From NCBI GenBank assembly GCA_024279915.1, contig JAJRRB010000084.1, positions 1 to 64,000 of the forward strand: DNA of 64,000 bases, written 5' to 3'. How positions within the stretch are numbered: position 1 is the stretch's first letter; the number at the start of each line of letters is the position of its first letter. The position numbers and the translations under genes are program-made. Source of the stretch: Deltaproteobacteria bacterium (GTDB lineage Bacteria > Desulfobacterota > Desulfuromonadia > Desulfuromonadales > BM103). The notes under the pieces were generated by a model, which was not told the DNA's origin, searched no databases, and saw only the letters and a program-made list of their open reading frames with translations. Shown here one piece after another: positions 4,082 to 56,881 of the stretch.

Positions 4082-5313
4082 CAGGCCGCCGAGCTGTAGC
4101 TCAGGGTCTTCTCCGGCCAGGTAGAGATGAACCAGGTAATTCGAAATCTGAGGATCTTGTTCTGCAGGATGAGAATCTCGAAGGCCATCAACGCTTTGCT
4201 GGAGAGTTGCTGCAGATCAATCACCGCTTGCGAAAGATCGACCGAAGCGTCATCAATGTAGATCAGGCCAACAACGCGTCCCATCATGCTCATGGGCAGG
4301 AGCAGGGCGGTTGTGGGCGCTGGTTTTCCCAAAAAAGTGGTCAAGGCAAGGTTTGCACCTTTCTGTGGAACCGGGCCGAGAAAGTAACTATTGCTCTCCA
4401 CCGCCGTTTTTAAAACCGATGGTTCAGATAGAGGCAGTTGAAATTGGTCAAAACCAGGGATTGGCTGGTCATTCTTTGCTGAACGCCAACCTGTAACCTG
4501 ACCAGCGACCACCATGAAGAGAGCTGCTCGGGCGTAGTTTGCGCCGAGATACTTGATGACAGCGTCGGCCACATCATTACGATCAGTAATCTTGACCAGT
4601 GCCTGTGCTGTGGTCGCTAGGGTGATCTCTTCATCTTCCAGTTCCTCAATCAGATCATCATCGGCCAGCTCTTCAATTTCCTCTTCAACAACCTCGGTTC
4701 CTGCAACCGGGTGGGACTCTGCTGGCTTAATTGTTGGCTTCTCGTAGATGTGTTCTGAACCAGGTTTGCCAAGATCTTTATTTGTATTGGATTCAACAAC
4801 CGGGCCGTCCGGTGTGGTGAAGATGTGCAGCTGGTGCAATTCATCGCGCACCTGTTTGGGTGGAGCGATGTATCGCATGGTGCGCTTGATGCCGTAGTGT
4901 TTTTCCAGGGCAAAGACCAGACGTACTTCCAGAGCCAGAATCGGTTTTACGATGTAACCGGTACGAAAGGAAATTTCATCGATCGATTTCAGATTGTGGG
5001 GCTCGGCCATGGCCAGAGTCAACTTCTTGCCACTGACCGCAATCGGCATGACTTTATGCTTTTCGGCCAATTCCAGGCTGATAATGTTGAGGATATTCTC
5101 AGGGATGTTCTGCATTTGCCCTGGTTTTGCACAGGGGATACCAAGGAGTTTCTCCAGAACTCCAGCCAGCGCATCTTCGGTAATCAGGCCCATTTCAATG
5201 ATGACTGTACCGAGCTTGCCGCCAAAAATAACCTGAGCTTGCAACGCTTCTTCGAGCTGCGCCTGAGTCAGCATATTTTTCTTGATCAGCAGCTCGCCAA
5301 GTTTGTCGGCCAT
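4081..5313 (-). CDS. MshEN (GspE N-terminal) domain protein with C-terminal GAF-like domain
   Basis: 410 residues. Residues 1-150 form a GspE/MshE N-terminal domain (KLGELLIKKNMLTQAQLEEA, then LGIPCAKPGQMQNIPENIL), the fold that binds c-di-GMP or mediates secretion-ATPase contacts in relatives. A Pro/Glu-rich linker with a strongly acidic run (EEEIEELADDDLIEELEDEE) follows at about 208-230, then a GAF-like domain from about 240 (TALLLPMSMMGRVVGLIYID). There is no ATPase domain, so this is not a complete GspE. AAGGGA precedes ATG 5313. The last ~22 residues are the out-of-frame shadow of the next gene's N-terminus, so the natural end may once have been earlier. It lies 18 bases after the M23 peptidase gene. 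Confidence 0.75.
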   Translation of the reverse strand: MADKLGELLIKKNMLTQAQLEEALQAQVIFGGKLGTVIIEMGLITEDALAGVLEKLLGIPCAKPGQMQNIPENILNIISLELAEKHKVMPIAVSGKKLTLAMAEPHNLKSIDEISFRTGYIVKPILALEVRLVFALEKHYGIKRTMRYIAPPKQVRDELHQLHIFTTPDGPVVESNTNKDLGKPGSEHIYEKPTIKPAESHPVAGTEVVEEEIEELADDDLIEELEDEEITLATTAQALVKITDRNDVADAVIKYLGANYARAALFMVVAGQVTGWRSAKNDQPIPGFDQFQLPLSEPSVLKTAVESNSYFLGPVPQKGANLALTTFLGKPAPTTALLLPMSMMGRVVGLIYIDDASVDLSQAVIDLQQLSSKALMAFEILILQNKILRFRITWFISTWPEKTLSYSSAA

Positions 5314-5331
5314 GATGTGTCCCTTGTGGTG

Positions 5332-6648
5332 TTATTTTGAAGAGTTGTTGATTGCTGGTTTTGCACTGGCAGTCTTGATGATTTTCTGATCTGTTAGCTC
5401 AGCGATGAGAGTTGTTGCTTTGCTTTTGAAATCTGCCATATTTGCTGAAGAAACCGGTTTGACAGCAGGCGCTTTCACCCTGGTAGGGTTAACCGGTGCA
5501 CCATTTTTTTTCATCCGGAAACAGAGGTGTGGGCCGGTGGCCAGGCCGGTGCTACCGACGTAACCAATCGTCTGTCCCTGTGCAACCCTTTTGCCATTAG
5601 CGATTTTTTTTGCAAAACCATTCATGTGCAGGTAGATAGTTTCGTAGCTGCTGTTATGACGGATCTTGATGTAATTACCGTTGCCCCGGGTATAACCTTT
5701 TTTGATGATGACGCCATCACCAACGCTTTTGATTGGAGTGCCGGTCGGTGCAGCGTAATCGATGGCCGGATGAGATTTCCAGGTCTTGGTGATCGGGTGA
5801 AAACGGCGAGTCGTGAAGCCGGAAGAGATACGTGAGAAGGTCAGAGGTGCTTTGAGAAAAGCCTTACGTAAACTCTGACCATCTGCATCGTAATAATCGG
5901 GCCGATGGTCACCGTCCTGATAGAGAATTGCCTGAAAACTAGTGCCCTGGTTGGTGAATTCAGCTGCAAGAATGCGGCCGTAACCAGCCGGCTGGCCTTC
6001 GCGGTAACGCTTCTCAACCAGAGCTTGGAATGCGTCTCCTTTGCGGATGTCGAGTATAAAGTCTATATCCCAGGCAAAAATATCAGCCAGATTCATTGCC
6101 AGGACATCGCTTTCACCGGTGCTGGTGACCGCTTCAAAAAGGCTGCTTTCAATGATTCCCAGTACACGCACTGCCTCTGTTGTGTACGGAATCGGAATCT
6201 TCTCGATAGAAAAATTCTCTGCATTGCGAGAAATGATCAACTGCTCGTTGCGGTCAATATCGTACTCAAAACGTTCGAAAGCATCATCACTCAAACAGAG
6301 TCGATATGCTTGGCCGGCACTGAGACGGGTGAGGGGGAAAATTGGTTTACACTGGCGATTCAGCTCATGGATTTCTGCCGCAGTAAAGAACTCGCCCAGC
6401 AGGGCTGTCATAGTATCACCTTGGGCGATGGTGCCCTTGATAATCTCTTTGCGAATCTCCGGAAGCGGTGGTGGTTGAGGAACCTCAGGCGCAGCCATTT
6501 TAGCTTCTGTACTGGTGACTGAGTGACGTAGAAAAAGAGGAACAAGCAGCAGGGTGATCAAGACCAGAAGCAGCCAGATACGAATGCGCGGGGTTGATCG
6601 CCGATGACTTGACACAGCCTTTTTGGGTGGGTGAAAATCGAAATCCAA
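5332..6648 (-). CDS. M23 family metallopeptidase, OapA/MepM-like
   Basis: About 438 residues. A basic cytoplasmic tail and one transmembrane helix (IRIWLLLVLITLLLVPLFL) are followed by an OapA/LysM-like periplasmic region and a C-terminal M23 domain that would cut peptidoglycan cross-links. The zinc site shows HPAIDYA (HxxxD), but the usual HLH motif reads GPHLCFR, with cysteine replacing the second histidine; the same H-x-C occurs in some other M23 subfamilies. No ATG suits the start; TTG 6648 has AGGAAG five bases upstream, and a longer TTG start at 6693 is also open. It heads the minus-strand operon with the MshEN-GAF and AcpH genes. Confidence 0.8.
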   Translation of the reverse strand: MDFDFHPPKKAVSSHRRSTPRIRIWLLLVLITLLLVPLFLRHSVTSTEAKMAAPEVPQPPPLPEIRKEIIKGTIAQGDTMTALLGEFFTAAEIHELNRQCKPIFPLTRLSAGQAYRLCLSDDAFERFEYDIDRNEQLIISRNAENFSIEKIPIPYTTEAVRVLGIIESSLFEAVTSTGESDVLAMNLADIFAWDIDFILDIRKGDAFQALVEKRYREGQPAGYGRILAAEFTNQGTSFQAILYQDGDHRPDYYDADGQSLRKAFLKAPLTFSRISSGFTTRRFHPITKTWKSHPAIDYAAPTGTPIKSVGDGVIIKKGYTRGNGNYIKIRHNSSYETIYLHMNGFAKKIANGKRVAQGQTIGYVGSTGLATGPHLCFRMKKNGAPVNPTRVKAPAVKPVSSANMADFKSKATTLIAELTDQKIIKTASAKPAINNSSK

Positions 6649-54457: not shown

Positions 54458-54943
54458 GTGTTAGCAAATAAGAGCATTACATCACTCGAATCAGTCCTCG
54501 ATCTTGCCGTATGGTTGGAGAAGCATGGTCAGGCCTTCTATGAAAGTGCTCGCGATGCAGCAACCGAGCCCGGTCTGAAAGAAACTTTTGCCATTCTGGC
54601 TGCTGAAGAAAAGAAACATTGCGCGATTTACACCGATCTTTATGAACTATACACCGGTAAGTCTGCTGAGGGAGAGGAGTTGCTTGGTGAATACGGTAAA
54701 TTCATCCAACTGCTGATCAAAGAGATCACTTCTGCTCTCGAATTCTCAGGTGTACTGTCTCAGGAAGAACTGATTAATCGGGCGTTGCAGTTCGAAAAGA
54801 ATACACTGCTTTACTTTTCTGAGGTCAAACCGCTCTTTCGAGGTAAGGCTGGCGCGCTTATTGAGGCTGTCTGTCGCGAGGGAAAGAGACATATCCAGCA
54901 GTTGCTGGAACGTCGGGAATTGCTGCGGGCGGGCTCGGCGTAA
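54458..54943 (+). CDS. ferritin-like / rubrerythrin-type diiron protein
   Basis: 161 residues. Two metal-binding helix pairs: WLEKHGQAFYESARD and ILAAEEKKHCAIYTDLYE (Glu, then E-x-x-H), then FEKNTLLYFSEVKPLF and EAVCREGKRHIQQLLERR (E-x-x-x-x-x-H). No C-terminal rubredoxin domain is present. Such proteins often reduce peroxide. GTG start 54458 with AGGAGGAA upstream. A selenoprotein rhodanese follows. Confidence 0.85.
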   Translation: MLANKSITSLESVLDLAVWLEKHGQAFYESARDAATEPGLKETFAILAAEEKKHCAIYTDLYELYTGKSAEGEELLGEYGKFIQLLIKEITSALEFSGVLSQEELINRALQFEKNTLLYFSEVKPLFRGKAGALIEAVCREGKRHIQQLLERRELLRAGSA

Positions 54944-54962
54944 AGTTAAAAGAAGACAAAAC

Positions 54963-54992
54963 TTGTCATTAATTGGCGAACGCTGGTAAAAT
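54963..54992 (+). promoter_or_regulatory. sigma-70-like promoter for the rhodanese gene
   Basis: TTGTCA (54963-54968), 18 bases, TAAAAT (54987-54992), 45 bases before the ATG. Confidence 0.5.
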
Positions 54993-55036
54993 CCCCAGTA
55001 GCTGTTTAAATATCAACTACGAAAGGAGTCATAGCA

Positions 55037-55447
55037 ATGCGTAATAAACGTCTTCTGCTCTATGTAACTTTTATAACAGGAATACTTCTTCTCGTCATGA
55101 GCCTTACGGTGACTGCCGCCTCGGTGCCTCGTATATCTACTGATGAGCTCAAAACAAAGCTTGGTTCTGCTGATCTAGTGGTGCTTGATGTTCGCGGTAA
55201 CTGGGACTGGGTCAAGTCTGAAGAACAGATACCCGGTTCGGATCGTGTCCCTCCTGGCGGGGCTAACCAATGGGCTGCGAATTATCCTAAGGAGAAGACA
55301 ATCGTTCTTTACTGCGCCTGAGTGAATGAAGCGACCAGTGCCAGTGTGGCACGGACATTGATAAAAATGGGATACACCAAGGTTTATGCGCTTAAAGGTG
55401 GATGGAACGAGTGGAAAAGTAAGGGTTATCCGGTGGAAGCAAAATGA
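55037..55447 (+). CDS. rhodanese-like selenoprotein (UGA read as selenocysteine)
   Basis: 136 residues if the TGA at 55319-55321 is decoded. A signal peptide (RLLLYVTFITGILLLVMSLTV) leads to a rhodanese domain: STDELKTKLGSADLVVLDVR, then VLYCA-[UGA]-VNEATSASVARTL, then VYALKGGWNEWKSKGYPVE. The UGA is codon 95, in the active-site loop, where relatives read YCACPNE or have Sec. The reading frame and homology continue without a break to the TGA at 55445. A stem-loop, GTGCCA-GTG-TGGCAC (55338-55352), follows at SECIS distance with G in its apical loop. Read as a plain stop, the protein would end before its catalytic residue. KAAGGAG-type site (AAAGGAG) upstream. leuC starts 24 bases later. Confidence 0.85.
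55338..55352 (+). promoter_or_regulatory. candidate SECIS stem-loop
   Basis: Six-base-pair perfect stem GTGCCA/TGGCAC with loop GTG; the loop begins 22 bases after the UGA. Bacterial SECIS elements lie inside the coding region just after the UGA, with a G near the tip of a small apical loop, which SelB binds. Confidence 0.6.
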
Positions 55448-55471
55448 TGGCTACCCAACAGGAATAAATCG

Positions 55472-56881
55472 ATGAGTGGAAAGACCCTGTATGACAAACT
55501 CTGGGATCGTCACGTGGTTCGTTGTGACGATGATGGCACCTGTCTGCTCTACATCGACAGACACCTGGTCCATGAAGTGACCTCACCTCAAGCCTTTGAA
55601 GGTTTGCGTCTTGCCGGGCGTGTTCCCTGGCGGGCAGAGGCAAATCTGGCTGTGCCGGATCACAATGTGCCCACGACGGACCGTAGCGAAGGGATCGCTG
55701 ACCCTCTGTCTCGACTCCAGGTTGAGCCCCTCGATGCCAACTGCTCAGAGTTCGGTATTACTGAATTTACCATGGACGATATCCGCCAGGGCATCGTCCA
55801 TATCATCGGTCCTGAACAGGGTGCGACACTCCCAGGCATGACGATTGTTTGCGGTGATTCACATACCTCAACTCACGGCGCTCTGGGTTCTCTTGCTTTT
55901 GGTATAGGCACCTCCGAGGTCGAGCATGTCCTGGCGACTCAATGCATTATACAGAAAAAGGCTCGCAACATGCTGGTCAGTGTGGATGGCCAGGTTGGAA
56001 TTGGGATTACCGCCAAGGACATCATGCTTGCCATTATCGGCAAGATCGGCACCGCCGGTGGTACAGGGTACGTGATCGAGTATGGTGGCGATGCGATCCG
56101 GGCCTTATCGATGGAAGGGCGCATGACGGTCTGTAATATGTCGATTGAGGCTGGCGCACGTGCCGGCATGATCGCCGTTGATGAGAAGACTATCGATTAC
56201 GTCAAGGGCCGTCCCTACTCTCCGAGCGGAGCACTTTGGGAGAAGGCGATTATTGACTGGCCGTTGCTACAGAGTGATGCCGATGCTCACTATGATCATG
56301 TCGTGCAGCTTGACGCCGCTACGATTCAACCCCAAGTGACCTGGGGGACTTCTCCGGAGATGGTGGTTGCTGTCAATGACTGCGTCCCGGACCCCGCAAC
56401 GGAACCAGATCTTGTCAAGCGCGAAGGCATGCAGGCGGCTCTCGCCTATATGGGGCTGACTGCGAACACTCCGATGACCGAGATTTACCCTGAAACAGTG
56501 TTCATTGGTTCCTGCACCAATGGCCGCATTGAAGATCTGCGTGCAGTGGCCAAGGTTGTTAAAGGCCACAAGGTTGCTGCAAATATCAGACGGGTTCTGG
56601 TCGTTCCCGGTTCAGGACTGGTCAAACAACAGGCCGAAGCCGAGGGATTGGATAAGATATTCAAGCAAGCCGGTTTCGAATGGCGCGAGCCGGGTTACTC
56701 CATGTGCCTCGCTATGAACGCCGACCGTCTCTCACCACAGGAACGCTGTGCCTCAACCTCAAACCGCAACTTCGAAGGTCGGCAGGGGCAGGGTGGGCGT
56801 ACTCACCTGGTCAGCCCGTCCATGGCCGCTGCTACCGCAATTGTCGGGCACTTCGTTGATGTCAGAACTCTGGAGGTTTGA
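55472..56881 (+). CDS. leuC: 3-isopropylmalate dehydratase large subunit
   Basis: 469 residues. With LeuD it isomerises 2- to 3-isopropylmalate in leucine synthesis. [4Fe-4S] cysteines are in [15 protein letters not shown] and [41 protein letters not shown] is the aconitase signature. AGGAATA precedes ATG 55472. leuD starts three bases after the stop. Confidence 0.95.

Follow-up and report, generated by a model that had tools for sequence, protein, structure and literature searches.

A small rhodanese-fold protein with a predicted Cys-x-Sec motif, encoded across an in-frame UGA in a Desulfuromonadales genome

In the window, by which we mean the whole stretch of 64,000 nucleotides of Deltaproteobacteria DNA analysed here (contig JAJRRB010000084.1), the forward-strand frame at 55037-55447 runs through 94 codons, a TGA, 41 further codons and a terminal TGA. 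Comparison with related genes indicates that the UGA at 55319 is almost certainly decoded as selenocysteine (Sec), and that the hairpin at 55338-55352 is very likely its SECIS element, since its stem is conserved in 109 UGA-bearing genes beyond what simulations yield. The decisive evidence for reading the UGA as Sec is comparative, not single-sequence folding. We are confident in the reading as a whole, under which a single gene would encode a small rhodanese-fold selenoprotein, completed by SelB-dependent insertion, exported, and using Cys93 and Sec95 in redox chemistry. An earlier note on this DNA had proposed a rhodanese selenoprotein with a SECIS after the UGA; its coordinates, TGA, hairpin and 22-base loop distance agree with the sequence, and the proposal is borne out by the selenocysteine machinery of the genome, a match to the family NF041203 and a conserved hairpin with one compensatory pair. 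The features are as follows:

54458-54943, plus strand: upstream rubrerythrin/ferritin-like gene (25.1 bits, cut-off 22.8), present in 9 of 97 flanking loci
55023-55028, plus strand: Shine-Dalgarno-like AAGGAG, 8 nt 5' of the ATG, read from the sequence
55037-55447, plus strand: Sec-rhodanese gene, 136 residues including U95, terminal stop TGA at 55445-55447; PF00581, NF041203
55037-55120, plus strand: hydrophobic N-terminal segment (residues 1-28), probable signal peptide or membrane anchor, pointing to export
55313-55315, plus strand: codon of Cys93 (TGC), the counterpart of the canonical rhodanese Cys (alignment, structure model)
55319-55321, plus strand: in-frame TGA read as Sec95 of a CxU motif (translation, alignment of relatives)
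55338-55352, plus strand: candidate SECIS hairpin GTGCCA-GTG-TGGCAC, perfect 6-bp stem, loop 22 nt past the UGA
55472-56881, plus strand: downstream leuC-type aconitase-family gene, followed by leuD; present in 15 of 97 flanking loci

Reading frame, UGA conservation and selenocysteine machinery

A conventional list of open reading frames contains only a 94-residue fragment of this gene (55037-55321), the truncation that the earlier note had foreseen. The catalytic residue was also expected to be lost; however, the canonical catalytic Cys93 stays in the fragment, and what is lost by truncation at the UGA is Sec95 together with the remainder of the active-site loop and the C-terminal portion of the domain. 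The 41 open codons past the TGA have a chance probability of ~0.13 at the composition of the window, which is weak evidence alone. Codon differences from six close relatives past the UGA lie mostly at third positions (4, 2 and 13 at positions 1, 2 and 3 in the case of L010), and the downstream half therefore looks translated.

The in-frame UGA is conserved among homologs. Relatives were sought in 58 genomes (its own, and those of the genus, family and order), with matches in 56, and 30 protein loci (L009-L038) were fetched from a longer list whose remaining rows include some with a TGA. An in-frame TGA was present in 23 of them (L009-L031, the window's own included), the other seven (L032-L038) being canonical paralogs. 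All 23 TGA-bearing loci have the TGA in one alignment column with protein aligned on both sides. In a collection-wide contig scan, UGA stood at the Sec95 codon in all of the best 80 among 226 confirmed loci, and some of these 80 come from the same genomes as loci of the relatives search. These best 80 of 226 are from Desulfuromonadales, Geobacteraceae, Desulfobulbaceae, Syntrophobacteraceae, Nitrospirae, Methylomirabilota and others, and the closest among them are metagenome-assembled genomes (MAGs) of Deltaproteobacteria, Desulfuromonadales and Geobacteraceae, matching the 'Geobacter relatives' named in the earlier note. In addition to the TGA of its CxU motif, one locus, L138 (Desulfacinum hydrothermale, within 5001-5399), has another in-frame TGA roughly 110 codons into the match. 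Across a phylum-wide sample, 46 of 297 genomes gave a match above the NF041203 cut-off, with 66 such rows among the matches listed; 61 of these carry at least one TGA and ten carry two (TGA being counted per listed row, its codon position placed in fetched rows only), and L190 also has a TAA.

The reading had been made to depend on selenocysteine machinery, and selA, selB, selC (tRNA-Sec) and selD are all present in the genome (3.83 Mb, 99 contigs, 98.45% complete, 2.72% contamination). SelA, selB and selD score 604.8, 390.9 and 362.6 bits, each above its cut-off, and adjoin on contig C17. The tRNA-Sec lies on contig C8 (70.9 bits, cut-off 47) and is also called by ARAGORN. A second match above cut-off, on contig C41 (48.2 bits), is a tRNA-Trp according to ARAGORN, and the tRNA-Sec model gives matches in 14 of 14 control genomes, above cut-off in 5, so that the claim to a tRNA-Sec rests on the 70.9-bit match. 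Among the 58 genomes of the relatives search, 54 have selB above cut-off. The selD of this genome (C17:42572-43492, L041) has one in-frame TGA itself, so SelD is apparently a selenoprotein, within the selA-selB-selD cluster.

That the TGA is a nonsense mutation in a pseudogene, or a mis-called TGY in a former Cys rhodanese, has a negligible chance: one genome shows only a single in-frame stop with 41 open codons after it (chance ~0.13), but the same codon is TGA in 23/23 TGA-bearing loci and 80/80 of the best 80 of 226, differences past it are mostly third-position, the Sec machinery is present and the family is curated as a (seleno)protein, and this conservation of the UGA in effect refutes both pseudogene and sequencing error.

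The terminal stop of the Sec-rhodanese (55445-55447) is likewise a TGA, and the frame stays open into the leuC ATG at 55472. One gene thus seemingly uses UGA both as Sec codon and as stop; the hairpin studied here stands only after the first UGA. Scanning for promoters and terminators gave chance-level results, with 3 promoter-like sites (2.9 in shuffles) and 2 terminator-like sites (3.2 in shuffles).

The hairpin downstream of the UGA

Bacterial SECIS elements are hairpins directly downstream of the UGA, with the loop 16-37 nt from it and a G early in the loop. The window hairpin has its loop at 22 nt, with G as the first loop base. Hairpins of comparable quality (6 or more Watson-Crick pairs in the stem, at least four of them G/C, and an early loop G) occur at SECIS spacing after 29 of 2730 TGA triplets on both strands of the window, or ~1%, and one genome alone therefore leaves only ~1% for coincidence. 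The stem is kept in relatives, whereas folding after the UGA, a check proposed in the earlier note, is energetically unremarkable: 60 nt compared with dinucleotide shuffles gave a z of -0.63, with 52 of 200 shuffles as good. Against synonymous shuffles, the folding energy of the window gene had a z of +0.52 and that of the 23 TGA-bearing genes a mean z of -0.82 (20/23 negative, only 4 below -1.6). A search of 54900-55600 against Rfam, with E values up to 1 accepted, gave no match.

We then compared the hairpin across relatives, counting each pair in each gene as one cell. Across the 23 TGA-bearing loci the six-pair stem has 137 of 138 cells paired, as compared with 90.1 +/- 4.2 (maximum 105 in 2000 runs) in simulations that redraw every codon from the synonymous codons of the same gene and treat related genes as independent, for which reason the margins of these simulations overstate significance. 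With only distinct rows retained (22), 99.2% of cells are paired, and slid registers give 20-61%. The covariation score of the 22 distinct rows is 0.211 against a shuffled mean of 0.142, with 2/500 shuffles as high. A two-sided change is seen in only one of the six pairs, a figure that 69/500 shuffles reach, and three pairs never vary among these rows.

A wider set of 117 sequences, from which eight exact duplicates were dropped, comprises 109 distinct genes (98 CxU and 11 UxU), some of them same-genome pairs with different ends. Here, with the loop-closing pair set aside, the remaining five are formed in 543 of 545 cells, the simulation giving 345.5 +/- 8.5 with a maximum of 372 in 1000 runs, again with related genes taken as independent; the loop-closing sixth pair is a standard pair in only 78/109 genes. 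At the second stem pair, U-A is found in 78 genes, C-G in 24, U-G in 6 and C-A in 1, a distribution that supports a compensatory U-A / C-G exchange with U-G intermediates. The three-base loop begins with G in 109/109 genes. The residue encoded there, at U+8, is Ser in 48 genes, Arg in 35, Gly in 21 and Trp in 5, its codon always being NGT or NGG. Because such chemically unlike residues all share this G, the G-middle codon at U+8 looks like a clear case of RNA-level constraint on the protein.

A Cys-x-Sec active site in a catalogued rhodanese family

The window gene is a new member of a family already known from bioinformatics. Its product matches the Pfam rhodanese domain PF00581 at 61.7 bits and the NCBIfam model NF041203 ('rhodanese_LYCAU, rhodanese-related (seleno)protein') at 167.3 bits over profile positions 7-126 of 126, above the curated cut-off of 115 bits, and the LYC-x-U motif of that family is present as LYCAU at residues 91-95. 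A 2026 review (PMC13188914) enters NF041203 under the name rhodanese-like domain-containing protein form 3, with the motif CxU and one Sec; a CxU rhodanese has been entered as COG0607 form 2 (PMC9312934), and a 'sulfurtransferase homologous to a rhodanese-like protein' has been tabulated with figures 24 and 25 (PMC5029168). As reviews list the family, the kind of protein was already known and only this member is new. The gene has the LYCAU motif and single Sec of form 3 and differs from it in nothing essential; its relatives add U-x-U, CxC and CxS at the Sec site. Rhodanese-like selenoprotein form 1 (WP_010941598.1, UxxS) and form 2 (UxxG) share PF00581 and one Sec with the window protein but are set apart by these motifs as listed in the review (PMC13188914), the window protein reading C-A-U-V-N-E. 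TsoB (NF045694, rhodanese/DsbD-fusion-like, UxxxxU) likewise has a rhodanese domain with Sec; however, its 572-position model describes a fusion for which two Sec are listed, and the window protein scores 44.8 bits, far below its cut-off of 805. Canonical single-domain rhodaneses of the GlpE type, including the seven paralogs, have the fold and the Cys93 position in common with it, whereas these paralogs read YCxxGxR, lack Sec and have a loop two residues shorter; on the GlpE model the window protein reaches 27.4 bits against a cut-off of 102. A second homolog in the same genome, on contig C70, is 31% identical and has no stop.

A structure model computed with Cys in place of Sec had a mean pLDDT of 93.2, and the PDB entries that it matches best, among them 6mxv (Foldseek E 7.3e-09) and 3tp9 (7.8e-09), are rhodanese domains. 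In this model Cys93 comes directly after strand 88-92 and the loop precedes helix 99-110; model and PDB matches together give the protein a predicted rhodanese fold with Cys at the end of a central strand. Alignment with the seven canonical paralogs places the canonical rhodanese Cys at Cys93, with Sec95 two residues further on. The UGA was previously put at the usual rhodanese Cys position, which does not hold: the paralogs read YC-xxGxR where this protein has YC-x-U. Replacement of the canonical Cys by Sec in the window gene is rejected, as paralog alignment and model both put Cys93 there. The 23 TGA-bearing loci read YC-(A/T/S)-U-x-x-E-x-(T/S)-S. The window loop, C-A-U-V-N-E-A-T-S, is two residues longer than the canonical one, and the six-residue C-x-x-G-x-R loop of canonical rhodaneses, with its arginine, is absent. 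Cys93 and Sec95 are invariant in a 38-row alignment whose rows were all picked from CxU loci.

Both sites carry U in 11/109 distinct UGA-bearing genes. Members with two TGAs (L078-L083, L184-L188; 11 fetched from 12 two-TGA rows among the matches listed in the phylum-wide sample) all read Y-U-x-U-x-x-E, with one hairpin downstream whose loop lies 28 nt from the first UGA and 22 nt from the second, and their genomes fall under five family labels (f24, f30, f32, f79 and f113). The second predicted Sec of these proteins stands at the canonical rhodanese Cys site. The review table lists NF041203 with one Sec and has no U-x-U entry (PMC13188914), and no U-x-U or two-Sec rhodanese selenoproteins were found in a searched library of open-licence PMC papers.

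Five above-cut-off rows among the matches listed lack TGA: L073 and L074 are CxC, and L075-L077 are C-x-S (TCA), L077 also having a TAA just before the Cys. Of the six stem pairs, L073-L077 keep 2, 1, 5, 1 and 5, respectively; with three of the five keeping only 2, 1 and 1, the hairpin would tend to decay once Sec is lost, in this small sample. TCA differs from TGA by one base, and two of the three genes with this codon retain 5/6 pairs, which would suit a recent loss of Sec. We tentatively propose that the CxU rhodaneses may constitute a redox subfamily of their own, with a lengthened loop that lacks the arginine and a Cys-Sec pair, some of which would have gone on to U-x-U with two Sec and one hairpin.

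Genomic context and candidate role

A hydrophobic N-terminal helix is predicted at residues 2-21, and lipobox-like motifs (FVGC, VAGC and LLGC) are found in three relatives (L025, L026 and L023, respectively), which makes export to the periplasm probable for the window protein. A likely role would be that of a periplasmic Cys-x-Sec redox or persulfide enzyme. SelB carrying Sec-tRNA would bind the hairpin and insert Sec95, and the N-terminus would export the product to the periplasm, where Cys93 and Sec95 could form a C-x-U redox pair in the lengthened loop. Cys93 might then accept sulfane sulfur from a persulfide or polysulfide, and the Sec95 selenolate might resolve the Cys93 persulfide, with release of sulfide and formation of a Cys-Sec selenenylsulfide that a periplasmic reductant would restore. 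The rhodanese fold would thereby be used for redox, in the manner of a persulfide reductase, and not for plain thiosulfate:cyanide sulfur transfer. This specific persulfide/redox chemistry of Cys93 and Sec95 is the likeliest of the chemistries considered, although it stops somewhat short of probable.

We consider it unlikely, while giving it real weight, that this true selenoprotein is an ordinary sulfurtransferase with thiosulfate or mercaptopyruvate as donor, Sec merely tuning the active-site loop. The PF00581 match, the fold and the placement of Cys93 at the canonical catalytic position are all as such an enzyme would have them, but the protein lacks the C-x-x-G-x-R loop of the seven paralogs and has one that is longer by two residues; furthermore, TGA is kept in 61/66 above-cut-off rows among the matches listed, which suggests a chemical step for Sec. 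Rather doubtful is a general periplasmic thiol/disulfide or peroxide oxidoreductase built on a rhodanese scaffold in place of a sulfane-sulfur enzyme, given that rhodanese folds are elsewhere associated with persulfide chemistry. Such a role would be in keeping with the recurrence of CxU in other selenoproteins listed in the review (PMC13188914) and with the redox roles expected for most uncharacterised selenoproteins (PMC9312934). Ordinary sulfur transfer, general thiol redox and the persulfide reading are not separated by the present evidence.

The neighbourhood, with its rubrerythrin/ferritin-like gene, gave no functional hint across 97 flanking loci. A link to leucine biosynthesis was considered and rejected: leuC adjoins in 15 of 97 flanking loci (among which some genomes are entered twice), all close relatives, and is not beside the Sec-rhodanese in one same-genus relative (L088/L105). 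Immediately upstream and on the same strand, 26 of the best 80 of 226 loci carry a conserved, clustered membrane protein at a median distance of 30 bases, possibly an operon partner of the Sec-rhodanese; the one such protein scanned (L113:405-1685) has a weak amino-acid-permease likeness of 19.3 bits, below the Pfam cut-off of 27.

Taken together, this analysis corrects the annotation of a gene from which a standard caller yields a 94-residue fragment lacking Sec and the C-terminal part of the domain. Within its catalogued family the window gene is unexceptional, and the U-x-U form is the most novel lead. Natural variants of a single active site, CxU, UxU, CxC and CxS, make the use of Sec in the rhodanese fold testable.
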